Assembly (NCBI RefSeq): GCF_024490875.1
Contig: NZ_JACCLX010000039.1
Location: 1-43,955 of the forward strand
DNA length: 43,955 bases
Reading direction: 5' to 3'
From: Methanocaldococcus sp.
GTDB lineage: Archaea > AGJL01 > Methanococci > Methanococcales > Methanocaldococcaceae
Positions 5,692 to 21,752 of the stretch are shown here, piece by piece. Every line of letters begins with the position of its first letter. Within the stretch, counting starts at the first letter, position 1. The notes under the pieces were generated by a model. It worked only from the letters and a program-made list of their open reading frames with translations. It was not told the DNA's origin and did no database searches. A program made the translations under genes and the position numbers.

Positions 5692-6636
5692 ATGTATTAT
5701 ATAATGCTTTTATTTGAGTGCGTCAAAACTTCTCTATATTATACGATAAAAATATCTATTGTTGTATTATTAACGATGTTTATTGTAAATTACATTATGA
5801 ATATTGGAGCAATGAACAAACTAAGTGAATATTTATTTCCATTTTTAAAGAAGTTAAATATAAATTCTATTTCAATCTCTTCAATATTAGCGTGTTTTTT
5901 TAGTCCTACAGTTGGCTATTCTATTTTAGCAGAAGGTTTAAAAGAGAATAAAATAACTGAGAAAGAACTTATAGGAACTTCTTTGGCAAATTCATTTCCA
6001 TCGGTTTTATCACATATATTTACTTTTTTTATTCCCGTAGTTATTCCAATATTAGGATGGACAGGAGTATTGTTTATATTAATTAGATTGGGAGTAGCAT
6101 TTACAAAAACAATAATTGGATTTTTATATCTTTTTTCAATCTCAAAAAATGATTTTTATGAAGTTCCAAAAATTAATAAGTTGAATAAAAAAGAGAATTT
6201 AAAAAAATCACTAACAAAAACATTAAAATTTTCTAAGAGATTTATACCGACAATGTTTTTTATGATGACTTTGGTTTTATATCTATACAAAGTTGGTTTC
6301 TTTAACTATATTGAAAAATTAATCCAGCCAATAATAAGTGTATTAAATTTAAATCCGAATGTTGGAATATTAGCCTTAACTGAGGTCTTAAATGTTCAAG
6401 CCGCAATAGTTATGGCAGGAGGTTTTTTAAATGAAAATATTTTAAGTTCAAAGGAGGTTCTAATTGGATTAATTATTGGAAATGTATTAACATTTTCAAC
6501 AAGATATGTAAAACACTCTTTGCCACTACATGTTTCATTGTTTGGAGCCAAGTTAGGAACTAAAATAGTTATGATCAATGCAATAATTACCCTAATTTTG
6601 GATATTTTTATAATATTTGGATTACTATTAGTGTGA
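5692..6636 (+). CDS. Membrane protein with nucleoside-recognition (Gate) domain
   Basis: A 314-aa polytopic membrane protein with about eight hydrophobic segments. It contains two Gate-like halves, one around FFSPTVGYSILAEGL and one around ALTEVLNVQAAIVMAGG. Related uncharacterised proteins occur in several copies in M. jannaschii; the family also includes spore-maturation and FeoB-gate-like proteins, and no substrate is established. I place the start at ATG 5692: the upstream in-frame GTG at 5683 lies inside the ribosome binding site GGTGAT. It follows the regulator by 25 bases in the sulfite-linked operon, so transport of sulfite, sulfide or a related anion is a reasonable but unproven guess. 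Confidence 0.75.
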   Translation: MYYIMLLFECVKTSLYYTIKISIVVLLTMFIVNYIMNIGAMNKLSEYLFPFLKKLNINSISISSILACFFSPTVGYSILAEGLKENKITEKELIGTSLANSFPSVLSHIFTFFIPVVIPILGWTGVLFILIRLGVAFTKTIIGFLYLFSISKNDFYEVPKINKLNKKENLKKSLTKTLKFSKRFIPTMFFMMTLVLYLYKVGFFNYIEKLIQPIISVLNLNPNVGILALTEVLNVQAAIVMAGGFLNENILSSKEVLIGLIIGNVLTFSTRYVKHSLPLHVSLFGAKLGTKIVMINAIITLILDIFIIFGLLLV

Positions 6637-6660
6637 GACATATTATAAATTTTCATAATA

Positions 6661-6873
6661 AATCATATTCAGCAAGAAAATTTCCCAGGATTCGATAATA
6701 TTAAATCGTAAAAAATAGAAAATTTTTATTATAATCTATTACGATTTTTAGGATATTTAATATTACTATAATATTTTTTAGATATTTTTCATATTTTATA
6801 ATATTGAATTGAAAATTTACCGGGGGTCAGTATTACTTTTAAAAAGTATGAGAATATGGAGATTTATAAATTC
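6661..6873. repeat. Structured repeat, copy A (~210 bp)
   Basis: This element is similar over about 210 bases to 6989-7190. Shared landmarks in order are GGATTcGATAATAT, a central hairpin with arms 6703-6711/6739-6747 (AAATCGTAA/TTACGATTT), the run CTATAATATTTTTTAGATATTTTT split by a few changes, TAATATT, and GGGTCAGTATTACTTTTAAAAA at the right end. No open reading frame of note crosses it. It could be a palindromic mobile or dispersed element, a structured RNA, or a decayed part of the adjacent CRISPR locus. Confidence 0.7.
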
Positions 6874-6988
6874 AGTATGTAATAAAGGATTTTCTGCCCT
6901 TTTTTAAGCCTATAAGATTTACAACTATATCAAAGAATTTAAATTTATGATATATATTCGTAATATTATCCTTATAGATTTTCATATA

Positions 6989-7190
6989 AACATATTATTC
7001 ATTCTCGGGATTTGATAATATCATATCATAAGAAAATTCTGTTTTTTATTATAATAATATTATGATTTTAGAATTTATCATATTATTATAATATTTTTTT
7101 GATATTTTTATGATTTTGTAATATTCAGATAGAGATTTTCCCGAGGGTCAGTATTACTTTTAAAAAAGATGTGAATATATAAATCTATAA
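6989..7190. repeat. Structured repeat, copy B (~200 bp)
   Basis: Second copy of the element at 6661-6873, in the same orientation and about 330 bases on. Its central hairpin arms are ATCATAA (7025-7031) and TTATGAT (7060-7066), where copy A has ATCGTAA and TTACGAT: both strands of the stem changed together. Copy B also has outer arms CTCGGGA and TCCCGAG near its ends, which copy A lacks. Paired change in the stem suggests selection for folding. Confidence 0.7.
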
Positions 7191-7218
7191 ATATTTTATA
7201 TTATTAAAAATTTTAAAT

Positions 7219-7417
7219 ATTTTTATCCCCTTTGGGGCCTGATTTTATACCCATAGGGCTCCGCCCTATTGCTATACTCCCTATGCATCGCTTCTTAAAA
7301 GAAGCAATGCCTCTTTTTATTTCCCCCTTTGGGGCTTGATTTTAAACCAGAAAGATTAGGATTAAGCGATGAATTAAAACAAATTGTTTCCATCCCCTTT
7401 GGGGCGTGATTTTAGAC
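7219..7417 (-). CRISPR. Three-repeat CRISPR array, decaying away from the leader
   Basis: Three related units lie at about 7219-7250, 7314-7347 and 7386-7417. On the minus strand the best copy (7386-7417, 32 bp) starts GTCTAAAATCACGCCCC, has the palindrome CCCCAAAGGGG, and ends GATGGAAAC. This resembles the Methanocaldococcus repeat family (..TTAAAATCAGAC..GGAATGGAAA) and fixes transcription on the minus strand. The other two have lost the GGAAAC end. Intervals are 38 nt (normal spacer, 7348-7385) and about 63 nt (7251-7313, abnormal). No cas genes are in the window, so it is an orphan array here. Confidence 0.72.
7251..7313. other. Double-hairpin interval within the array
   Basis: The 63-base interval between repeat units 1 and 2 holds two perfect inverted repeats: TAGGGC-TCC-GCCCTA, and GCTTCTT-AAA-AGAAGC, the latter inside a longer GCAT...ATGC frame. 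It is GC-rich for this genome and too long for a normal spacer. It may be an inserted short palindromic element. Confidence 0.5.
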
Positions 7418-7800
7418 AGGACACAATTTGAAGAGATAATTTTCTAAAATTACTTTATTATACTTCTTTATATAGGGGTTATAGTTCGGAGGGTCAATAA
7501 CTGCTATTATTTATATACCTCCGAACTTATATATAAATTTTTCTATTTTTATTTATTTGCTTAAAAATCCTTAAAATTTTTAATATTAACCTAATTATCG
7601 GGGAAAATTGAAGATAGAAACAATTAAGTAAAATCTCCAAAAAATCTTAATAATTTAATAAAATTAAATATTAAAATTAATCAAAACAGGCGACCCTTCG
7701 AAATTTGATAAAAATCCTCTAAATTAAAAAATAAAAATTTTTAGCGAGAGAGGTGATAATAAATAAAGACTAATTTATGGGAGGTATATAGAAGGCAGAG
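7418..7800 (-). promoter_or_regulatory. AT-rich CRISPR leader-like region
   Basis: Gene-free, very AT-rich sequence lies directly upstream (minus strand) of the best-conserved CRISPR repeat, where a leader belongs. It contains TATA-like elements (CTATATAAAG near 7466-7475 and TTTATATATAAG near 7527-7538) and a perfect 10-bp inverted repeat, AGTTCGGAGG/CCTCCGAACT (7483-7492/7518-7527), with a 25-base gap. The region also holds the 3' flank of argF. The leader call rests on position and composition only. Confidence 0.5.
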
Positions 7801-7806
7801 CCCTCT

Positions 7807-8721
7807 CTATGCTTTAAATATAAATTTAAATACTCCTTTTTGGACATGTAATCTATTTTCTGCCTCATCATAGACAACTGAATGCACCCCATCAATTACA
7901 TCGTCAGTTATTTCATAACCTCTATTTGCTGGAAGACAGTGCATAACAATTACATCCTTTTTGGCATACTCTAATAATTTATTATTTATTTGGAATGGAG
8001 GAAATACTTTTAAAACTTCCTCTTTATTTTTCTCATCACCCATACTTACCCAAACATCAGTATATAACACATCAGCATCTTTTGCAGCATCTATTGGATC
8101 GTTAGTTAAAGTTAAAGAACCTTCTCCATACTCTTCAATAATTTCTTTTGCCTTTAACACTACCTTGGCATTTGGCTCATAACCTTTTGGTGTTCCCACA
8201 TATATATCCATTCCTACTAAGGCAGAACCTAAAATTAAAGAATTACATACATTGTTGCCATCTCCCAAATAAGCAATTTTTAATCCTTTAAATTTTCCCT
8301 TATATTCTTTTATTGTCATTAAATCAGCCAATATCTGACAGGGATGAGCCATATCACTTAGTGCATTTATAACTGGAACTGAGGAATACTTCGCCATCTC
8401 CTCTAAATCTCTATGCCTATAAACTCTTGCCACAATTGCATCTACATATCTACTCATAACCCTTGCAGTATCTTTTATTGACTCCTTTTTACCCAAGTGT
8501 ATCTCATTTTGATTCATTATTAAAGGATGACCTCCTAACTCATAAACAGCAATATCAAAACTCATTCTTGTTCTTGTTGAGGGTTTTTCAAATAATATTG
8601 CTACACTCTTACCATCTAAAACTTTTTCGTGTTTTCTTCTATTTTTTTTAAAATATATCCCATAGTCAATAATTTTCAATACATCTTCCCTACTCAAACA
8701 ATCTAAATCCAAAAGATGCAT
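7807..8721 (-). CDS. argF: Ornithine carbamoyltransferase
   Basis: Transfers the carbamoyl group of carbamoyl phosphate to ornithine, giving citrulline in arginine synthesis. The 304-aa protein has every family signature: STRTR (residues 48-52) and HPCQ (126-129) for carbamoyl phosphate, and DVWVSMG (222-228) and HCLP (261-264) for ornithine, which separates it from aspartate carbamoyltransferase. ATG 8721 is chosen because GGTGAT lies four bases upstream; the in-frame GTG at 8730 is part of that ribosome binding site. It is a single gene, divergent from the methyltransferase at 8819. Confidence 0.96.
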
Positions 8722-8818
8722 TAATATCACCTTTAAGGATAAAATTACATAAAATTTTATTTATAGTTGGAGATTAATATTTTAATTTAAACAAAGTTAT
8801 AAACATTTTGGTGATACA

Positions 8819-9415
8819 ATGCACTATTTCTCTGAACGTCCTACTACAAAATCAGACATTAAAATTATTGAAGATATATTAAGAGGCAAAAAATTGAAAT
8901 TTAAAACTGACTCTGGCGTTTTTTCTCATGGTAAGGTAGATAAAGGAACTAAAATTTTGATTGAAAATGTGGAAGTTAATAAAGATGATGATATCTTAGA
9001 TTTAGGTTGTGGTTATGGAGTTATTGGAATATCTTTGGCTGATGAAGTAAAGTCAGTTACAATGGTGGATATAAATAGAAGATCTTTAAAATTGGCAAAG
9101 GAAAATATAAAGTTAAATAATTTAGAAAATCAAAATATAAAAGTTATTTACAGTGACTTATATGAAAATATTAAAAACCGTAAGTTTGATAAAATTATAA
9201 CCAACCCTCCAATAAGGGCTGGGAAGGAAGTTCTTCACAGAATTATTAAAGAAGGCAAGGAGATGTTAAAGGATAGAGGAGAAATTTGGGTAGTTATACA
9301 GACAAAACAAGGAGCTAAATCATTAGCAAAGTTTATGAAAGAAGTTTTTGGAAATGTTGAAACTGTTACAATTAAAGGAGGATATAGAGTTCTAAAGTCT
9401 GTAAAGAAAAAATAA
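8819..9415 (+). CDS. SAM-dependent methyltransferase, RsmC-like
   Basis: A 198-aa class I methyltransferase. Motif I is DLGCGYGVIG (61-70), the acidic ribose-binding residue follows in MVDINRRSL, and the catalytic N-P-P motif is TNPPIRAG (128-135). That motif is typical of N-methyltransferases acting on nucleic acid bases and places the protein with the RsmC/RlmG group (16S/23S rRNA guanine N2). It appears to be the counterpart of M. jannaschii MJ0882, known structurally; its RNA substrate is not established as far as I know. It starts at an ATG after GGTGAT and is divergent from argF, as in M. jannaschii. Confidence 0.9.
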   Translation: MHYFSERPTTKSDIKIIEDILRGKKLKFKTDSGVFSHGKVDKGTKILIENVEVNKDDDILDLGCGYGVIGISLADEVKSVTMVDINRRSLKLAKENIKLNNLENQNIKVIYSDLYENIKNRKFDKIITNPPIRAGKEVLHRIIKEGKEMLKDRGEIWVVIQTKQGAKSLAKFMKEVFGNVETVTIKGGYRVLKSVKKK

Positions 9416-9453
9416 ATATAATATTAGTCAATATACAGTAATTTAAATATACT

Positions 9454-9466
9454 ACAATAATATTGT
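9454..9466. promoter_or_regulatory. Palindrome upstream of the permease
   Basis: ACAATA-A-TATTGT is a perfect inverted repeat. It sits just after a TATA-like TTTAAATATA (9442-9451), between that box and the expected start of the permease transcript. It may be an operator; its AT-rich composition makes chance symmetry possible. Confidence 0.3.
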
Positions 9467-9499
9467 TATAAAATCTCAACAAAACTTAGGAGGGATTAC

Positions 9500-10813
9500 A
9501 TGCTGGAGAAAATTGCAGAATATTTTGAGTTTGAGAAGTATAATACAAATTTTAGAATTGAGACATTGGCAGGAATAACAACATTTATGACAATGGCATA
9601 CATTATCTTTGTGAATCCACAGATATTAAGTGCTACAGGGATGGACTTTGGGGCAGTTATGGCAGTTATGGTTGCAACCTGTATATCATCTGCGATAGCC
9701 ACATTGTTAATGGGTGTTTTTGCAAGGTATCCATTTGCACTCGCTCCTGGAATGGGGTTAAATGCATACTTTACCTATGGTGTTTGTTTAGGAATGGGAA
9801 TTGATTGGAGAGTTGCCTTAGGAGCAGTATTTATATCTGGGATATTGTTTGTAATTTTAACACTTACAAAAATAAGAACAATGATATTTAACGCAATTCC
9901 AAATGCTATAAAATATGGAACTGCTGTTGGTATTGGTTTGTTTATTGCATTTATTGGTTTGAAAAATGCTGGAATTATTGTTGAAAGTAAAGCAACATTG
10001 GTTACATTAGGTAATTTATTAGAACCATCAACATTACTGGCAATGTTTGGAATATTTTTAACAGGGATTTTACTTTGTAGAAGAATTGTTGGGGCTATTT
10101 TGTGGGGAATAATAATTACTGCGTTGATTGGGATGATTTTAGGAATAACACCCTTCCCAGATGGAATAGTTTCAATGCCTCCATCAATAGAACCAACATT
10201 TATGAAATTGGATGTTGTGGGGGCCTTAAATTTAGGATTACTAACTATAGTATTGTCATTCTTCTTTGTTGATTTATTCGATACATTGGGGACATTGAGT
10301 GCTTTGAGTTCACAGGCAGGTTATTTAAAGGATGGAAAACTACCAAGGGCTGAGAGAGCATTAATGTCAGATTCTCTTGGAACAGTTATTGGCTCAATTT
10401 TAGGAACATCAACAGTAACCACATACATAGAATCTGCCGCAGGAATTGCAGTTGGAGGAAGAACTGGCTTTGTTTCAATAATTGTGGCTTTACTGTTTTT
10501 GTTGGCTTTATTCTTTTATCCTATTGTAAAGGTAATCCCAACCTACGCAACAGCGTCAGCATTGGTTGTTGTTGGGGCATTAATGATGACTTGTGTAAAA
10601 TACATAGATTGGGACGACATTTCAGAGGCAATTCCTGCATTTATAACATTAATATCAATTCCATTGACTTTCAGTATAGCAACTGGTTTAGCACTGGGCT
10701 TTATAACTTACCCAATATTAAAAGTATTTAGTGGAAAAGCAAAAAAAGTTCATTGGCTCGTTTATGTATTGGCAGTAGCTTTTGCCTTAAGATTTGTCTA
10801 CCTTTCTGGATAA
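9500..10813 (+). CDS. Purine permease, AzgA/NCS2 family
   Basis: A 437-aa transporter with 12 or more hydrophobic segments. Family marks are FALAPGMGLNAYF (79-91), the substrate/proton region FFVDLFDTLGT (255-265) and TYIESAAGI (308-316). These are the hypoxanthine/adenine/guanine (AzgA-like) branch of the nucleobase-cation symporters rather than the uracil/xanthine branch. It likely imports purine bases with protons. The start at ATG follows AGGAGGGATT. It is followed by two T8 tracts (10827-10834, 10857-10864) and appears monocistronic. It sits between genes I remember as neighbours in M. jannaschii, so its place here may be a rearrangement. Confidence 0.9.
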   Translation: MLEKIAEYFEFEKYNTNFRIETLAGITTFMTMAYIIFVNPQILSATGMDFGAVMAVMVATCISSAIATLLMGVFARYPFALAPGMGLNAYFTYGVCLGMGIDWRVALGAVFISGILFVILTLTKIRTMIFNAIPNAIKYGTAVGIGLFIAFIGLKNAGIIVESKATLVTLGNLLEPSTLLAMFGIFLTGILLCRRIVGAILWGIIITALIGMILGITPFPDGIVSMPPSIEPTFMKLDVVGALNLGLLTIVLSFFFVDLFDTLGTLSALSSQAGYLKDGKLPRAERALMSDSLGTVIGSILGTSTVTTYIESAAGIAVGGRTGFVSIIVALLFLLALFFYPIVKVIPTYATASALVVVGALMMTCVKYIDWDDISEAIPAFITLISIPLTFSIATGLALGFITYPILKVFSGKAKKVHWLVYVLAVAFALRFVYLSG

Positions 10814-10951: not shown

Positions 10952-12286
10952 ATGAACTCTTATTATGATACAATTCCAAATTTTAAATATTGGGATGTAG
11001 AGGCATGGAAAGAATATATTCAAAATTATATCGTCCCAATTTATGAAAATACAAAATATCTTTTAGAACTTAAAGATAAACTTTATTTTTATGTAGATAT
11101 GTCCTTAGAAATGGTAAATCAATGTGAGAAAAAGATACTACCTTTCTTTGTTGGAGATATTGATGAAAATGGAAATTATAAAGAAAATAGCCTTGCAAGA
11201 TTAATTTATTTAATGTTTGGAATATATGTTGAACCAAAGGAATTTGCTAACACTATAAAAGAACTTGGAGAAGAGGGATTAAAAGATATTAAAATAAAAT
11301 CTAAAAACAAAGATGAATGGGCATTTATTAAGTTTTTAGAGGAGATGTATAATTATAGTTCAGAGATTATTGAAAAATTGAAAATTGATATTCAAACATC
11401 TATTAAGATTGATGATATAATACAAAACCCAGATAAAATTTTAGACATTTTAAAGGAACTTTATAAAGTATGCGTTTCTTTTAGTGCGAATTATAATTAT
11501 TACACATTCTTTGTTATAAGTTCTTATGGAATCCATTGGAAATATTTAGTTTCAGCATATCCAAAATTAAATGAGCATTTTGGGGAGATAAAAGAATTTT
11601 TAGGATTTTGTCCTATGTTTGTTCCAGATGTTAATAGTGATGCATTTAAAAAAGATTATACAATATGGTATTATGAAAAAGGGAGTATTGGAGATAGTTT
11701 GTTTAATATGCAAATAATTTTATGGCATTTCTTTGATTTTTTCAATTATGAAAAATATTATGATTATTATTTTGAATATGAAAAATATAAAGAGGGTTAT
11801 GAAAAATTTTATGAAATTTTTAAATATATTGTTGAAAAGCCCGAGAACTTAAAAGAAACATACAAAGAACTTGTTAAAAAATCCCTTGAAAATGTATTTG
11901 AGGAAATAAATATTGAAAATGCAAAAATAAATTTAAAAGATGTGTATCTCTTTATAATAGATGAAAAATATATTGTGAAATGGCCAAAAAAAGAAATTGT
12001 AGATAGATATTATCATGCTAAAAATGATTACAGAAACAATAAAATAATTTATAGAACTAAATATAATTATGAAATACCTTATGAAGAAGAATTATCAAAA
12101 CCCAAAATTTTACTTTTTGATTTTTTAAATAAAGTTGCTCCTATCTTATTTTTAAAACTTGCAATAATTTTAACTATTGAGAACAGTGAATATTGGGAAA
12201 TTACTAACTATGGAAAGTTGCCTATTTTAATGTATTATGGTGATTTCTTAAGAGACTTTCCATACAGATTGAGGAGATTAAAATGA
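10952..12286 (+). CDS. Unrecognised protein, first gene of accessory operon (444 aa)
   Basis: I do not recognise this protein. It is soluble-looking, rich in Tyr, Phe, Lys and Glu, and probably mostly helical. Residues about 255-300 form an extraordinary aromatic stretch (NYEKYYDYYFEYEKYKEGYE) that could be a coiled coil or packing surface. There is no P-loop, no cysteine cluster and no signal peptide. It starts at ATG after GTGGTGG and ends in an ATGA overlap with the next gene, so the two products are probably translated together and interact. Relative to M. jannaschii it lies between the methyltransferase and trm5 genes I remember as adjacent, so it looks like inserted accessory DNA. Confidence 0.8.
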   Translation: MNSYYDTIPNFKYWDVEAWKEYIQNYIVPIYENTKYLLELKDKLYFYVDMSLEMVNQCEKKILPFFVGDIDENGNYKENSLARLIYLMFGIYVEPKEFANTIKELGEEGLKDIKIKSKNKDEWAFIKFLEEMYNYSSEIIEKLKIDIQTSIKIDDIIQNPDKILDILKELYKVCVSFSANYNYYTFFVISSYGIHWKYLVSAYPKLNEHFGEIKEFLGFCPMFVPDVNSDAFKKDYTIWYYEKGSIGDSLFNMQIILWHFFDFFNYEKYYDYYFEYEKYKEGYEKFYEIFKYIVEKPENLKETYKELVKKSLENVFEEINIENAKINLKDVYLFIIDEKYIVKWPKKEIVDRYYHAKNDYRNNKIIYRTKYNYEIPYEEELSKPKILLFDFLNKVAPILFLKLAIILTIENSEYWEITNYGKLPILMYYGDFLRDFPYRLRRLK

Positions 12287-14160
12287 ATGAAAAAATTCTA
12301 TTAAAATATGAAGATAAATATAAAGATAGAGAAAAAAGAAGAAAAATAACTGATAAAAAACAACAAAAAGAAAATAAAAGTTCTCAAATCATCAACATTT
12401 CAAAACAAAAAGAACTTAAAGAAAAAACTATAAGCAATGAAGAGACAAAAATTTTTGAAATTCCAAAAATTGTTTTTGATAATGCAAAATTAAACTTTAA
12501 ACATGTTATTTTAGAGAAAAATATAACTCTACAAAGAAAAAATCTCGAACTGAAAATACCAAACATCAAACTAACAACTCCATATTATGAATTTTTAAAT
12601 ATAAATGTAGATAAAAGCTTTAACATTACAAAAGCTGAAAACTCTTTATTAATTCCAAAATTTGAGACTATATTTCCAAATATTACATTTTTAAATGCTG
12701 GAATTAACATAGAATTTAACATTTCAAAAGATAAAAATGACTTATACATTCCAAAAGTTAAAATTTTAAATCCAGAAATTGAATACACTCAAAATAAATT
12801 AAATAGCGATTATCTAATCTTAAAACAGATAGAAAAGAGTTTTAGTATTCCTAAGATTGCTATTTCAGAACCTTCACTAAATATTACTGATTTTAGGGGA
12901 CTTAAAATGGCTAAAAACTTGGGAATTAAAGAAACTCTTAATATTCAGAAAGAAAAACAAGAATCTGTAATTAAAGGAATTAAAGAAGATACATTAACAG
13001 AAAAAATTGAAATAGTAAATACTACTGTTTCAAACGCAAATGAAACCAAAGAAACAGAAATTGAAGAATTTAAAGAGCCTATAGAATTTTTATTTGGTGG
13101 TAATGTTGAGGGAATAAAAAGAGGAGAACCATTAATTGTTTTATTTAAAGATTATAAAGATGACAACTACATTCAAACATTTGAGACATTATTATTAAGA
13201 ATTTGTAGAGAAAAATATGGAGGAATCCCAGAAGTTAAAAAGCTAAGTTTAAAGGAGGATTGGAACAAATATGAGATTGAAAGATACCTCGATGAAGGAA
13301 ACATATTTCTTATAGAGTTAGATTCTAAAAATGACATAGATAAAGATAATCTTGCCGATAGATTATGGGCAATATTTTCAAAAGAAAGAGGAATTGTTAT
13401 TTTCTATACAAAATCTGAAAATATCTTTGAAAAATACAAAACAATCCTAAACGAAATAAAGTGGAACAAATTAAATTTAAAAGCAAAAATCATTGAAATA
13501 ATCCCAAGAAAATTATCCTTTGAAGAAAAAATTAATATTACAAAAGCACTTTTTGGTTTTGTTGATATAGAAAATGCTCCGCAAACTGCACCAATGGATG
13601 CTATCCTTAATTTTGCCAAAGAAAAATATAAAGAAATACTTGAAAAAATTAACAATAAATATTATACTACCTTAGGAATCATAAATGAAGGAGAAAACGA
13701 AAGTAAAGAGCATATAAATGTAAAATCCTTTGTCACTCATTGTTTAATCAAAAAACTTGAAAAAGATGAAAAAATTCAAAAAGACGACAAAGAAAAAGAT
13801 TGGGATGCTATTAAAGAAAACATCATCAAAACCGAACATCCAAAGGAAGGAAAGAACAAGAATATAATTGTTGATGTGTATTTTGTTGATAGAGATGAGA
13901 ACTACGAAATTGAAACATTATTTGAAGAGGGCTTTGGAAAAATCCACAAAACGATAGAGAAATACAACCCAAATGAAAAAATTAACATTGTTATTGAAAA
14001 CATAACTGCTTTCTTGCACGCAAAAGAATTCTTTGATTTAATAAATCTTATTGAGAATAAACAAAGATATAAGAATTTACAAATCAATTTATACACACTT
14101 GATATAAAAAATAAAAAATTAATAAATCTAAAAGATTATTTAAAGGCATTAAAACGGTGA
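12283..14160 (+). CDS. Repeat protein with nuclease-like C-terminus, second gene of accessory operon (625 aa)
   Basis: No named family recognised. Residues 1-57 are a charged Lys-rich tail. Residues 58-200 hold five tandem units marked by Ile-Pro at 60-61, 92-93, 124-125, 156-157 and 189-190: spacing 32, 32, 32, 33, probably beta-rich. Residues 265-425 look like an alpha/beta Rossmann-type domain (PLIVLFKDY, IFLIELD, GIVIFYTKS) without a Walker A motif. Residues 470-625 resemble PD-(D/E)XK nucleases of the E-x-E-T kind: ESKEH (473-477) in the first helix, D531 in IIVDVYF, then E542 and E544 in YEIETLF. The final catalytic Lys is not obvious, so activity is uncertain. It overlaps the gene at 10952 by four bases and is followed four bases later by trm5. 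Confidence 0.8.
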   Translation: MNEKILLKYEDKYKDREKRRKITDKKQQKENKSSQIINISKQKELKEKTISNEETKIFEIPKIVFDNAKLNFKHVILEKNITLQRKNLELKIPNIKLTTPYYEFLNINVDKSFNITKAENSLLIPKFETIFPNITFLNAGINIEFNISKDKNDLYIPKVKILNPEIEYTQNKLNSDYLILKQIEKSFSIPKIAISEPSLNITDFRGLKMAKNLGIKETLNIQKEKQESVIKGIKEDTLTEKIEIVNTTVSNANETKETEIEEFKEPIEFLFGGNVEGIKRGEPLIVLFKDYKDDNYIQTFETLLLRICREKYGGIPEVKKLSLKEDWNKYEIERYLDEGNIFLIELDSKNDIDKDNLADRLWAIFSKERGIVIFYTKSENIFEKYKTILNEIKWNKLNLKAKIIEIIPRKLSFEEKINITKALFGFVDIENAPQTAPMDAILNFAKEKYKEILEKINNKYYTTLGIINEGENESKEHINVKSFVTHCLIKKLEKDEKIQKDDKEKDWDAIKENIIKTEHPKEGKNKNIIVDVYFVDRDENYEIETLFEEGFGKIHKTIEKYNPNEKINIVIENITAFLHAKEFFDLINLIENKQRYKNLQINLYTLDIKNKKLINLKDYLKALKR

Positions 14161-16721: not shown

Positions 16722-19700
16722 TCATAGTATGAACTTATCTAATGTTAATTGAGATCCTTCTTTCTTTAACTCATTTTTTGAAACTCCTACAGCCTCCATA
16801 ATTCTCAAAACTGGTGGCAAAATTTGGTTATCTATATAATAATTTACATCTACATCATCAATATCTACTTCTTCTGGAAGTTTTGCTCTCTCACTTATAG
16901 ATTTAGATCCTTTAACTATTATATATCCAATAATGTCTCCAACTTTAATTTTCTTTCCTTCTCTCATCAATTTCTTAGCAATTTCAACATGTGGGGCAGT
17001 GGTTTTATACTCTCTGGGATCTTTTGTTAGTTGAGTATAAATTATTAAATCCTCTTTTTTTATTTTTCCTTCTCTTAAATTTTTAATAACATCTTGAATT
17101 ATTTTTTTTGCTTTCTCTATATTACCTTCAACTAATAATGCCTCTAAAACCTTTTTTTGAGTTATCTTTGCTATTTTAGACCAATCTCTTCTAATATATT
17201 CAAGACCTTTAATTGTAATTTTCCCATTCTCATCAATTAGGGCGTATTTCTTTTTAGTAACAAAGATACCTCTTTTAAAGTAGCCCTCAAATTCTAACTC
17301 CATAGTTCCAGGCAGTTTTGAGTTTATATATTCAATAAATTCCAATGCTTTTTTTATTAACTCATCTTTGCTAATTTTTTCTTTCCAAATTGCATAGAAT
17401 CCATCAGTATTATGAACTAAAATTCCATTTGCAAAGAATCTATGTGATTCCTCAACTTCAATATCATAGACATAGTCATTGTAGTCAATTTCTTCTACTT
17501 TTTTAACATTAACTAAATCAAAATCAAAGAAAGTTGATTTATATCTACTGTTTGGTTTTAAATGGTCTATAAGTTTTTTCTGTTTCCTCTCAATTAAAAA
17601 ACCTATTCTTTTAGCGAATAACCACTTATTTTTAATGAATATATACATTGAATATGTTCCACTATCTTTAAATATGGAGTGAGAAATTCCTACAAGCCAT
17701 AGGAGTTTCCTTATACTTTTTAACAGTTCCTCATTAATACATGTTAGCATAACTTCTGGATATCCTCTTTTTATTATTACACTACCATCTGCACTGAAAA
17801 AACCCCTTAAAAACGCTTCAATATATTTTCTTCTTAATTTGTATAAAAACTTTGGAATTATCTTTCTGTCATTCTCATCTTTAAATACTCTCATAAACTT
17901 TACTAACTTCTTGCTCAAAATTTTAACATCTCCCTTTCTATTTACATAGTAATATGTAATAACTCCTGCCTTTTTAAGAGGTTCTAATATTTTATTAACT
18001 ATTTCATCTCTATCAAGTCCTGCTGACAAATGTAAGTAATATTTTGCAATATTTGTATAATCTTCCCAACTACCCTCTCCTATTAATAATCCAATTAATT
18101 CCCAAAACTTAACTCCTATATTTATAGCAAAATCACTATCTTTTATTAAAGTTCCATTTAGAGTTATTAAAGACTTTACAGTTTTTCCGATTTCACAAGG
18201 CTTAATTTCTATAAACCTTTCTCCAATTTTTTTCACTTTTTTTATAGATTTTGTATTTAAGTAGCCAATTAGTGAATGGTCTTCGGTAACATCTATATAC
18301 CAACTATTTGTAATCCATACTCTATACATCTTTTTTCTTGCTAAATGTCTCATAATATATGGAATTTTTTTCCAAACTAATTTACCATTATCATCTAATG
18401 TTAGTGCCTCAACATCTTGTAGAGTGCAATATTCTTTATCACCAAGTTTATATTCAACTTTCTTGAATAAATCTTTAATTTTTGTAAATTTTATTTCCCC
18501 TTTTTCTCTAATTATTATTTCTGTATTTCCAGAAACACTGTCCGCATAGATTACTTTAAATCCAAATTTTTCAGCCTCTTCTATTGTTTGTTGTATATAC
18601 TTCCTACCTAAGTATGTAACAATTTCTGCACATTCCTTACTGTAAAATCTTGCTCTTGGATATGCTAAATAACCATAATGGCTATTGTGAGCATATATAT
18701 TATTAACTAAAAAGTTTTCATTTTCTTCTACACTTAAATCATAAACATAGCCGTTATATTCAAACTCTTCAATACTTTTAACTTTATCGAGCATTAAATC
18801 TTTATCAAATAGATAGTTGCGTGTATTTGAAGGGATTACAGTTAATTTATAACCTTTATTTTTAACTGGTGTGAATCTTGTAGGAATTCCCACTAAGTTG
18901 AACAATAACATTAATTGATATAAATATTCTTCATCCTTAGCCATAAATGTTAATGGCTCTTTAAATTTGTTTTTCTTTGCTATAATGAAGCCCTCTATAA
19001 AACTTCTTATAACACTTTCTTTAGCAAAAAATAACTCTTCTGGAATGCGTTTTTTAGTATCTTTTCCTTTATCTCCAAATTTAAAGATATACTTTAACAA
19101 TAGATAAACTATCTTTTTTTCCATCCTCACTTTATCCTTAGAGATACTACCAGAACCAAAAACTTCCCTAAATATCTCTAAAACCTTCTCTTGATGCTCA
19201 GGAATTGATTTATAAACTGCCACTTCGTAAATAATGTAGTCATCTTGTACAATCTTGGATAATACTCCCCTTGGAACGAAAACTCCTAAAAACTTTGCCA
19301 ACTTTTCATCTAACTTTAAAATTGCATCTAACTTTTCAGAGTATGCTCCAATTTCACAATCTTCAAATTCTTTATCAGGCAATTTTAATACGAAATCCTT
19401 TATTTTTAAATATGGGATACTGCAAAAATTCTTTTTAAAATTCCCATATTTTAAAAATGTCTCAACATACTTTTTATAAATGGCAAATTTCTTTTTATTT
19501 GATATATTAACAGTTATCTTATTTATTTTTGAATATTTTTTAAATGTAATTAAGTTAAGTTCGTTTAAATATTCTAAACTGTCAGTAAATCCTTTATCAA
19601 ACTCTTTATTTTCTATACTTTCAATAGTTTTCAATAATTTAACGAAAAACTCCTTATTTTTGTATTTTCTTATATGAATATTTTTAATCTCTTCTTCATC

Positions 19701-21653
19701 AGCATTAACTAATCCTTTTGGAATATTTATATATATCTCTTTATTGGCAGATTTTAATTTTTTTGGAACCACAATTAAATCTCCAACCTTTATTTCGTTA
19801 CCTTTAATGCATACAATTCTTCCATTTTCATATTTAAATAAACTATGACCTTCAGTTATTTTTATCGTTCTTCCAGATCTCAACCTTATTTTATATGCCT
19901 TCCCAGAGTATTTATGCCTTATTAATCCTTTAACTTTGTTTATAGAACTTTCTTTACTTTCTATATTAAAGGAGAATGTTTTTAAGTTTATAGTTGATAA
20001 ATTCAGGATTTCACTATCTCCACTGACTTTAATTTTACTTCCATATCTTTCCATTAATTTATCAATATATTCCCCTATCTTTACCACTTTACATTTCTCA
20101 TCATTTTCTATAATAGTTAAATATTCATCTGGTAAGATACTATTAGCCAAAATCTTTAAAGATTGTTGCTCATAATTTAGTAATTTATATTCCTCATCTT
20201 CTTTATTTAGTTGTTTCATTTTTTTCTTAATATTTATTCTTCTCTCAATTAAATTTCTCAATGTTTTTGGAATTAAACCCTCTCTTTTTTTACAGAACCA
20301 ATGTCCTAATATTTTTTCACTTTCATCTTTACAACATTCACAGTCCAATGTATCTGGGCTTATATTATAGGAAATTATTATAGATGGATACAAACTTCTG
20401 AAGTCCAATGATATTATATCCTCAAATATTCCCTTTTCTGGGCTTTTAACATATCCTCCTTCATATGTAGTTAATAAACGCCTTCTATATTCTTCATCAT
20501 CTGGCTTGTTCGGAACTATCATATTTTCCTTAAATGCATTTTTCATTAGTAAATATTCAACCATCTGCCCAGAAGTCATTCTTGTAATCTCAAATGGTGT
20601 CTGATTAACAATTCTTGAAAACATCACTTCTAAAGGGAAGAAATAATTTCCTACTTTGTATGTATATTTAGCGTCTTGTAAGGAATATTCAACTAGAGTT
20701 TTATCATTATTTATCCAATAATTTGCAATATCTTTGTGCGAAATCTTCAACTTTTTAATTCCAAATAGATTATAGACAACATCTTCCAATGTGTATTTTG
20801 TTAATTTTAACAATCTTCTTGAAATTGGATATAAATCAATATGAACTCTTCCTGGAATATAACTTCTATATTCCATTCCCCCTCTTTTTATTTTTATTTC
20901 TTCATTTTCCTTTCCCAACTCAACTTTTATGTTGTATAATTTAGCCCTCTCTTTTAAGTAAGGAAAGTCAAAGTTATCTCCATTGTAAGTGTAGATAATA
21001 TCATACTGCCTCAATGTTTCAATTATTTTTTTAATTAACATTTTTTCATTTTCAACGACTTCAATATTTGGATGATCAAATTCTTTATAGGTAATAACTT
21101 TTCTTCCATTTTCGTCCCAAAAACTTGCCATTAATATTGAGTCTCTTTCTGGGTCTGGCTCGGTATCTCTATTATAAACTTCAATATCAAAAGATACTGC
21201 CTTTAATTTAGGAATCTCTCTACTTACTGGTTTATTATTTTCAAAATCCCAATATGTCATAGGAATAATATCTTTATCAATTAAATATCTCTTAGCAAAA
21301 GGAATATCATGCTCGTAAATTTCTTTAACAATTGGACATTCTCTAACTTTTCTAAGTTTCGGAACTTTTTGTGGATGAGTGGCAATAATTTTTAAAATTT
21401 CTTTTTCTTTTTTAAATATCTTTTTTTTAACTACTTTAAAATCTTCAACAAATTTTAACAAATCATTTTTTAAAAGAAAATCTTTTATTGTCTCAATATC
21501 TTCATAATCTATCTTATCTTTATTCAACTCAACATAAAAGTATGGTTTAAAATCTCTATCCTTTAATATAGAGTTAGTTAGATAAAGGTAAATTATGGCT
21601 TTATCATCAACGGTCTTGTATGTATTGTCTATTAATGCCTCTATTTTTTCCAT
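16722..21653 (-). CDS. polB: Family B DNA polymerase, precursor with two inteins
   Basis: Replicative/repair polymerase; 1643-aa precursor from ATG 21653, or 780 aa after loss of inteins of 486 and 377 aa. Numbering here counts from an in-frame ATG 22 codons upstream. The exonuclease motifs are SFDIEVYN (176-183), TYNGDNFDFPY (244-254) and YSLQDAKYTY (345-354). Polymerase motif A is DFRSLYPS (439-446), motif B KILAN-SHYGY is split by intein 1, and motif C YAD-TDGFY is split by intein 2; KKKYAL follows. The last residues QLTLDKFIL form a PCNA-binding peptide. ATG 21653 was chosen because GGGG lies six bases upstream and the polymerase N-terminus MEKIEALIDN starts there; the upstream extension is hydrophobic and unlike the family. 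Confidence 0.95.
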   Translation of the reverse strand: MEKIEALIDNTYKTVDDKAIIYLYLTNSILKDRDFKPYFYVELNKDKIDYEDIETIKDFLLKNDLLKFVEDFKVVKKKIFKKEKEILKIIATHPQKVPKLRKVRECPIVKEIYEHDIPFAKRYLIDKDIIPMTYWDFENNKPVSREIPKLKAVSFDIEVYNRDTEPDPERDSILMASFWDENGRKVITYKEFDHPNIEVVENEKMLIKKIIETLRQYDIIYTYNGDNFDFPYLKERAKLYNIKVELGKENEEIKIKRGGMEYRSYIPGRVHIDLYPISRRLLKLTKYTLEDVVYNLFGIKKLKISHKDIANYWINNDKTLVEYSLQDAKYTYKVGNYFFPLEVMFSRIVNQTPFEITRMTSGQMVEYLLMKNAFKENMIVPNKPDDEEYRRRLLTTYEGGYVKSPEKGIFEDIISLDFRSLYPSIIISYNISPDTLDCECCKDESEKILGHWFCKKREGLIPKTLRNLIERRINIKKKMKQLNKEDEEYKLLNYEQQSLKILANSILPDEYLTIIENDEKCKVVKIGEYIDKLMERYGSKIKVSGDSEILNLSTINLKTFSFNIESKESSINKVKGLIRHKYSGKAYKIRLRSGRTIKITEGHSLFKYENGRIVCIKGNEIKVGDLIVVPKKLKSANKEIYINIPKGLVNADEEEIKNIHIRKYKNKEFFVKLLKTIESIENKEFDKGFTDSLEYLNELNLITFKKYSKINKITVNISNKKKFAIYKKYVETFLKYGNFKKNFCSIPYLKIKDFVLKLPDKEFEDCEIGAYSEKLDAILKLDEKLAKFLGVFVPRGVLSKIVQDDYIIYEVAVYKSIPEHQEKVLEIFREVFGSGSISKDKVRMEKKIVYLLLKYIFKFGDKGKDTKKRIPEELFFAKESVIRSFIEGFIIAKKNKFKEPLTFMAKDEEYLYQLMLLFNLVGIPTRFTPVKNKGYKLTVIPSNTRNYLFDKDLMLDKVKSIEEFEYNGYVYDLSVEENENFLVNNIYAHNSHYGYLAYPRARFYSKECAEIVTYLGRKYIQQTIEEAEKFGFKVIYADSVSGNTEIIIREKGEIKFTKIKDLFKKVEYKLGDKEYCTLQDVEALTLDDNGKLVWKKIPYIMRHLARKKMYRVWITNSWYIDVTEDHSLIGYLNTKSIKKVKKIGERFIEIKPCEIGKTVKSLITLNGTLIKDSDFAINIGVKFWELIGLLIGEGSWEDYTNIAKYYLHLSAGLDRDEIVNKILEPLKKAGVITYYYVNRKGDVKILSKKLVKFMRVFKDENDRKIIPKFLYKLRRKYIEAFLRGFFSADGSVIIKRGYPEVMLTCINEELLKSIRKLLWLVGISHSIFKDSGTYSMYIFIKNKWLFAKRIGFLIERKQKKLIDHLKPNSRYKSTFFDFDLVNVKKVEEIDYNDYVYDIEVEESHRFFANGILVHNTDGFYAIWKEKISKDELIKKALEFIEYINSKLPGTMELEFEGYFKRGIFVTKKKYALIDENGKITIKGLEYIRRDWSKIAKITQKKVLEALLVEGNIEKAKKIIQDVIKNLREGKIKKEDLIIYTQLTKDPREYKTTAPHVEIAKKLMREGKKIKVGDIIGYIIVKGSKSISERAKLPEEVDIDDVDVNYYIDNQILPPVLRIMEAVGVSKNELKKEGSQLTLDKFIL
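17409..18539 (-). other. Intein 2 in PolB (pol-c site), endonuclease apparently intact
   Basis: A 377-aa intein inserted in the catalytic YAD-TDGF motif. It runs from Ser (SVSGNTEIII) to Asn (ILVHN), followed by extein Thr. The splicing blocks TEDHSLIGY and YVYDIEVEESHRFFANG are complete. The LAGLIDADG blocks keep their acidic residues (LLIGEGSWED and LRGFFSADGSV), so the homing endonuclease may be active. It closely resembles the T. litoralis intein containing PI-TliI. Confidence 0.92.
18684..20141 (-). other. Intein 1 in PolB (pol-b site), endonuclease decayed
   Basis: A 486-aa intein from Ser (S-ILPDEYL) to Asn (YAHN), before the extein residue Ser of SHYGY. The splicing blocks are intact: the N-terminal Ser, TEGHSLF (block B), YVYDLSVEENENFL (block F) and terminal His-Asn. 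This is the site of the Thermococcus litoralis polymerase intein that also begins SILP. The LAGLIDADG blocks are damaged: LGVFVPRG, where relatives have LGYYVSEG, and FIEGFIIAKKN, where relatives have LEGYFIGDGD. Both catalytic acidic residues are missing. Confidence 0.9.
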
Positions 21654-21752
21654 AACCATCCCCACTTTGTATATTTTTAAGTAAAATTTAAACAATAGGA
21701 GATTTATTTTTATCTTCATTAAATATGTTTAATACTCAAAACTATGAACCAT

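Follow-up and report, generated by a model that had tools for sequence, protein, structure and literature searches.

What are two large genes of no recognised family doing in the midst of archaeal housekeeping genes, and what might their products achieve together? The question is raised by a 43,955-nucleotide stretch of Methanocaldococcus sp. DNA (hereafter the window), in which the genes that we call A and B (Table 1) lie among argF, an MJ0882-like methyltransferase gene, a permease gene, trm5, rfcL and PolB (identified by eye). A sequence-only reading had singled them out as two ATGA-coupled genes, and the open reading frames lie exactly where it had put them, with an overlap of 4 nt (ATGA); trm5 starts 4 nt past the end of B. 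That reading had also placed the pair between a methyltransferase gene and trm5, which are direct neighbours in six genus mates, also where A-B is absent, but it had left out the permease, so that in the window three genes (permease, A and B) separate the two. The closest sister genomes (G005 and G006, with trm5 95% identical) lack A-B and carry another gene upstream of trm5, and the G+C content of A and B (0.234 and 0.244) is below the window average of 0.282. Housekeeping genes flank the pair in the window as well as in G008 and G013, and in Methanocaldococcus-like genomes (so called by gene content) A-B is found among trm5, rfcL, nop5 and purM. Elsewhere in the window, at 16722-21719, a family B DNA polymerase gene is apparently split by two inteins, presumably like those of M. 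jannaschii.

Table 1. Features of the A-B locus, in window coordinates
Feature	Position	Strand	Basis or remark
MJ0882-like methyltransferase gene	8819-9415		conserved trm5 neighbour in genus mates
Permease gene	9500-10813		also between MJ0882-like gene and trm5 in the window
Gene A, 444 aa, dedicated partner of B	10952..12286	+	ORF; homologue upstream of B in 61/69 loci
C-terminal half of A, first part of exchangeable cassette by homology	11618..12283	+	replaced in L153/L154 and L182/L183; window boundary by analogy
Gene B (625 aa): variable N-terminal repeats, then central and putative nuclease domains	12283..14160	+	ORF, family matches
Ile-Pro repeat region, B residues 48-205, five units of 32-33 residues	12424..12897	+	spacing statistics; second part of exchangeable cassette
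Central alpha/beta domain, B residues 265-455, no P-loop	13075..13647	+	two-sequence AF2 model; weak Foldseek matches
C-terminal PD-(D/E)XK-type nuclease domain (putative), B residues 456-625	13648..14157	+	conserved motif, natural DxK-T variants, ExE/DxK profile match
H477 and K481, predicted first helix of nuclease domain	13711..13725	+	H 67/72, K 71/72
E518	13834..13836	+	70/72
D531, PD aspartate	13873..13875	+	71/72
E542-I-E544-T545	13906..13917	+	DxK-T in eight homologues

For the C-terminus of B, a PD-(D/E)XK-type nuclease had been proposed on the strength of D531, E542 and E544, with E476 and H477 upstream. An alignment of 72 homologues bears this out: the three acidic residues lie where they were said to be and H477 is conserved (67/72), whereas E476 is not. 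Positions 542 and 544 read E-x-E in 63 of the aligned sequences and D-x-K in eight, with a threonine next in nearly all (T545 is kept in 68), and one of the eight contains KPDIYVKEFGLVIDAKTS, a textbook PD-(D/E)XK signature. Profiles of the ExE family and of the DxK group align motif on motif (hhalign, 99.3% probability, E 6.5e-21), and the DxK group has a single PDB match, a marginal one (E 0.12), to a phage exonuclease, with D...DxK as the aligned motif. AF2 models built from two sequences (window and L020) have a pLDDT of 52 both times and a pTM of 0.41-0.44, with an order of strands and helices compatible with a restriction-endonuclease-like fold; Foldseek on the nuclease domain of these low-confidence models gave no significant match. 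Because the K, E, D and ExE-T positions are near-invariant and DxK-T occurs naturally in eight members, sequence comparison supports well the assignment of the B C-terminus to a nuclease of the PD-(D/E)XK superfamily. Since ExE stands in place of (D/E)xK, most B members could be catalytically altered or inactive, a point to which we return below.

Upstream of the putative nuclease lies the alpha/beta domain without a P-loop that the sequence-only reading had described, and here too the comparison agrees: the Walker A pattern GxxxxGK[ST] occurs neither in residues 265-455 of window B nor in the aligned members inspected. The AF2 model covering this domain, again from the window and L020 sequences, has a mean pLDDT of 52 with block means of up to 81, and in its better-modelled blocks, residues 80-130 of the modelled piece, the order of strands and helices resembles that of AAA+ proteins. 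Foldseek searches with that pLDDT-52 model returned AAA+ ATPases and clamp-loader subunits with E-values down to 6e-5 at TM-scores of only 0.2-0.3. These models offer the suggestion that the domain is perhaps a degenerate AAA+-like fold devoid of its P-loop.

The N-terminal arm of B is of a different nature. Five units marked by Ile-Pro at exact spacing had been noticed, and Ile-Pro indeed occurs at residues 60, 92, 124, 156 and 189, a spacing of 32, 32, 32 and 33 that lies far outside what shuffling produces: five [ILV]P never lined up at intervals of 31-33 residues in 20,000 shuffles of B, and self-similarity at lag 32 is 83, as against -35 +/- 13 in shuffled sequences (0/2000 as high). The repeat character is a feature of the family, because, in a set of 65 homologous N-termini, distances of 32-33 (z 10.8) and 34-36 residues (z 10.2) between [ILV]P pairs are overrepresented. 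A match of B to PHIKZ161 (E 0.018) is confined to the repeat region and was set aside. In G008, two contigs (L024 3-740 and L023 1-1766) both end within the B repeats, and, as the ends differ, a longer or duplicated array that broke the assembly is suggested.

How do the variable and the constant parts of the pair behave during evolution? In two syntenic loci (L153 and L154), the flanking DNA is 94-95% identical on both sides, whereas a stretch of about 1.45 kb, from around residue 135 of A to around residue 205 of B, is devoid of DNA similarity; protein identity is 22-47% at the end of A and 93-97% in the C-terminal part of B. The B gene of L154 seems shortened at its N-terminus. The same pattern recurs in another phylum (L182 and L183), where the upstream gene is 96% identical, A mostly 11-57%, the N-terminus of B 27-40% and its C-terminus mostly 92-100%. 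In two pairs of loci, then, unrelated sequence has jointly taken the place of A's C-terminal part and of the B repeats, while the nuclease half is kept. Fifteen close pairs point the same way, the N-terminal half of A being more conserved than its C-terminal half in 12 and the central domain of B more conserved than its repeat arm in all 15; between the window and L151, identity is 60% for the N-terminal and 36% for the C-terminal half of A, and 30, 65 and 59% for the N-terminus, central domain and nuclease domain of B, respectively. Taken at face value, this suggests that the end of A and the B repeats are parts of one surface under diversifying pressure, which we infer to serve recognition; the exchangeable cassette, to judge by these alignments, probably gives specificity.

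Gene A itself thus has a conserved N-terminal and a fast-changing C-terminal half. M1, G68 and P397 are invariant in the family alignment, and W19, G69, G90 and N182 nearly so; its best match among PDB sequences, a designed helical protein, would suit an alpha-helical A and is otherwise uninformative. Weak matches to A alone in single-sequence searches (HisS-like frames in L025, L026 and L029, a DNA ligase or MinD region in L028) were rejected, as B is not present there and the matches vanish with the family profile.

How widespread is the pair? G008 and G013 have close A-B pairs. Searching with a profile of the C-terminal part of B added 14 further archaeal genomes, after which an A profile placed A beside most of those B genes. 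A 13-member B profile found the family in 21/115, 39/398 and 26/394 genomes of three other archaeal phyla (about 9% of 907). Among 69 near-complete B genes with room upstream, A lies directly upstream on the same strand in 61, at a distance of 40 nt or less in 54 and overlapping in 34, and the trees of A and B mirror each other (r 0.71, against a maximum of 0.17 in 2000 permutations, n=51). A was thus rightly called a dedicated partner, and B homologues, rather than standing singly and always in housekeeping contexts, are mostly paired and in part lie within defence loci (see below). Three related genomes (L177, L178 and L179) carry B without a detectable A in one conserved locus, beside a membrane-protein gene.

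Searches with A and B against Pfam, NCBIfam and PADLOC gave no match above cut-off, nor did 13 diverse members of each family against Pfam, and nothing significant came from PDB sequence searches with A, B and members; hits in B to Imm63 (E 0.003-0.01) and FAD_binding_1 stayed below cut-off, were not common to the family and were discarded. No relatives of window B were found in viral contigs, phage records or plasmid records, and haloarchaeal queries matched one hypothetical protein of a Halorussus plasmid. The family is missing from every library searched; by 'undescribed' we mean not found in these libraries nor, by term, in the open-access literature. Passages on archaeal dark matter and BREX diversity retrieved by term from PMC4158269, PMC6393860 and PMC12839542 do not describe the A-B pair.

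The pair occurs in several operon variants. A gene for a proteasome-like Ntn hydrolase (matching Pfam Proteasome) precedes it in operons of the type Ntn-A-B or Ntn-X-A-B (L157, L158, L160 at 5750-10214, L163 and L166) and follows it in A-B-Ntn operons (L172 and L181), where the hydrolase starts with Met-Thr. Genes overlap in these operons, and four of the loci have an extra gene of 304-311 aa that belongs to no known family; no convincing homologue of the hydrolase was found in the window's own genome (best E 0.03). An AAA+ ATPase gene follows A-B in L027, L192, L193 and L206, and B in L207; a winged-helix-like gene lies between A and B or replaces A in L057, L199, L200, L210 and L203; and a metallopeptidase-like gene is located upstream of A-B in L182 and L183. 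Genes of the HExxH type beside A-B (L182 2550-3437, L183 6500-7384 and L060 1300-2082) belong to two families of unknown function and are probably metallopeptidases.

Known defence genes are also among the neighbours. In a haloarchaeal-type BREX operon (L203 2640-17345), brxC and pglX/pglZ enclose B together with a 91-aa winged-helix-like gene and a short A-like piece, and in L055 A-B is followed by brxA-brxB-brxC. A DUF499/HmaC ATPase lies near the pair in L053, TmtA in L168 and a type II methyltransferase beside it in L152; by eye, HsdM/HsdR-like genes (type I restriction-modification) adjoin it in L027, and a methyltransferase and a possible endonuclease gene lie nearby in L057. In 19 matched genomes, 73 PADLOC families were matched by 113 A-B neighbours and 23 by 112 control genes (mostly HerA and helicases), a count of redundant families rather than of loci, with an enrichment carried by a minority of loci; many other A-B loci have no recognisable defence neighbours.

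The distribution of the pair is patchy. It is absent from most genomes, nearest sisters included, and reaches up to four hits in one (G420). Cassettes from different phyla can be very similar: L027 and L192 share 76% identity in A and 88% in B, AAA gene included, and L061 and L195 share 79 and 61%, respectively. Several copies have decayed, among them that of G035 (L022 6841-9910), which is broken by a TnpB-type insertion, with some 405 N-terminal residues remaining of A and 97 C-terminal ones of B. Near-identical cassettes across phyla, together with patchy, multiple and decayed copies, are more in keeping with a module that is selfish or serves defence than with a housekeeping gene.

What, then, might A and B do? 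We consider it probable that they constitute an undescribed, mobile archaeal module for the restriction of invader DNA, with B as nuclease effector, A as its partner and an exchangeable recognition cassette shared by the two. B would cut nucleic acid with its C-terminal domain, to whose predicted catalytic set we ascribe this activity; the P-loop-less central domain may hold or relay a regulatory state; and the repeat arm, together with the C-terminal half of A, would form the recognition surface. As these two parts are adjacent in the DNA and are exchanged as one block, a strain could change its target and keep its nuclease, while A might either silence B until the target is met or deliver B to it. 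Variation among lineages is what one would expect of a modular defence system: in some, the pair is joined, or A replaced, by an AAA+ ATPase or by a proteasome-like Ntn hydrolase, a metallopeptidase-like or a winged-helix protein, whereas the window has the minimal A-B form. A bolder version, possible but doubtful in our estimation, sees a methyltransferase-less restriction module whose recognition cassette lies across a two-gene junction and which, in some lineages, joins an Ntn hydrolase or AAA+ unfoldase in a new nuclease-protease immune complex. Of the defence or DNA-processing system envisaged by the sequence-only reading, comparison upholds the repeat arm, the P-loop-less domain, the PD-(D/E)XK-type nuclease motif and the partner; the role in defence is our interpretation, and the neighbours in the window are housekeeping genes.

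Could the same features serve the pair itself rather than its host? A toxic nuclease B restrained by A, the loss of which would be lethal, would make A-B a selfish or addiction module or the cargo of a mobile element, any antiviral effect being secondary. Patchiness, cross-phylum transfer, the TnpB-type decay in L022 and the tight co-transcription of overlapping genes would all suit such a module, but the two proteins, of about 400 and 600 aa, are large, joint exchange across the A/B junction is unexpected of a simple antidote pair, and viral contigs, phage and plasmid records offer no relative except on one haloarchaeal replicon, so that we regard this explanation as unlikely. Slightly less likely still is a host nuclease for nucleic-acid processing or repair that has spread by horizontal transfer without a part in defence. 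It would sit naturally beside trm5, rfcL, nop5 and purM in Methanocaldococcus-like genomes, and a nuclease with a dedicated partner could equally serve repair; yet a gene pair confined to about a tenth or fewer of archaeal genomes and absent from sister species, with up to four matches in one genome, several decayed copies and a hypervariable segment, does not look like one.

The last alternative concerns the mechanism. Should the ExE majority be mostly inactive, the nuclease domain might act as a sensor of nucleic acids or nucleotides and exert its effect through the Ntn hydrolase, AAA+ ATPase or metallopeptidase where one is present. This would account for ExE-T rather than DxK-T in most members and for proteolytic or unfolding partners in the operons of several lineages, and it has a parallel in inactive REase domains proposed, in the passages of PMC12839542 on other immune systems, as nucleotide sensors. 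The acidic residues are almost always kept, though, which one would not expect if the site were dead, and a third gene of this kind is missing from the window and from most other loci. Moreover, BamHI is an active enzyme with a D...ExE site. We therefore judge a sensor-only domain improbable, more so than either a selfish module or a host nuclease, and retain invader-DNA restriction by an exchangeable A-B module as the favoured interpretation.

Why does this matter? Of the archaeal genomes sampled here, roughly every eleventh carries the pair, and yet the lack of a Pfam, NCBIfam or PADLOC entry hides it from annotation and from the tools that look for defence systems. Should it restrict foreign DNA, it would be a system widespread among archaea in which two proteins share a recognition part that is exchanged in nature, and its variants would allow one to ask directly how a nuclease acquired a proteasome-like hydrolase or an unfoldase as its companion. 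As Thermococcus-like genomes (by gene content) carry A-B, genetic tests may be feasible.

Set against known systems, the pair combines familiar elements in an unfamiliar way. With the PD-(D/E)XK superfamily, B shares by sequence the order helix(K) - E - D - ExE/DxK-T - helix - strand and has eight members with the canonical D...DxK, but it differs in its ExE-T majority and in having no significant Pfam or PDB match. Shedu (SduA), described in the pertinent part of PMC12839542 as a variable N-terminal sensor fused to a PD-(D/E)XK nuclease, resembles B in its succession of a variable N-terminal region and a C-terminal nuclease of this type, whereas in A-B a second protein shares the variable region and B has a P-loop-less central domain; window B has no PADLOC match, the SduA (DUF4263) models included, at E-values up to 10 and no significant Pfam match, and the B proteins of L203, L204, L027 and L055 have no PADLOC match at 0.01. 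Auxiliary PD-(D/E)XK nucleases are described for BREX loci in the same source (PMC12839542, passages on BREX), and in two archaeal groups BREX operons enclose or adjoin A-B, or else a B gene accompanied by a short A-like fragment and a winged-helix gene; no BREX model is matched by A or B, and pglZ, brxC and pglX are not among the window reading frames next to A-B, PglZ and BrxC being found only at other loci such as L203. Nor does the window hold a cognate DNA methyltransferase for A-B, as a type II restriction-modification system would have; the MJ0882-like gene keeps its place beside trm5 also in genus mates that lack A-B, and adjacent DNA methyltransferases were seen only elsewhere (for instance in L057 and L152). 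The closest analogy to the exchange itself is type I restriction-modification, where the recognition part, HsdS, is exchanged and the enzymatic part stays. A-B follows the same principle, but its module contains neither a methyltransferase nor HsdS, and the swapped block spans the junction between two proteins.
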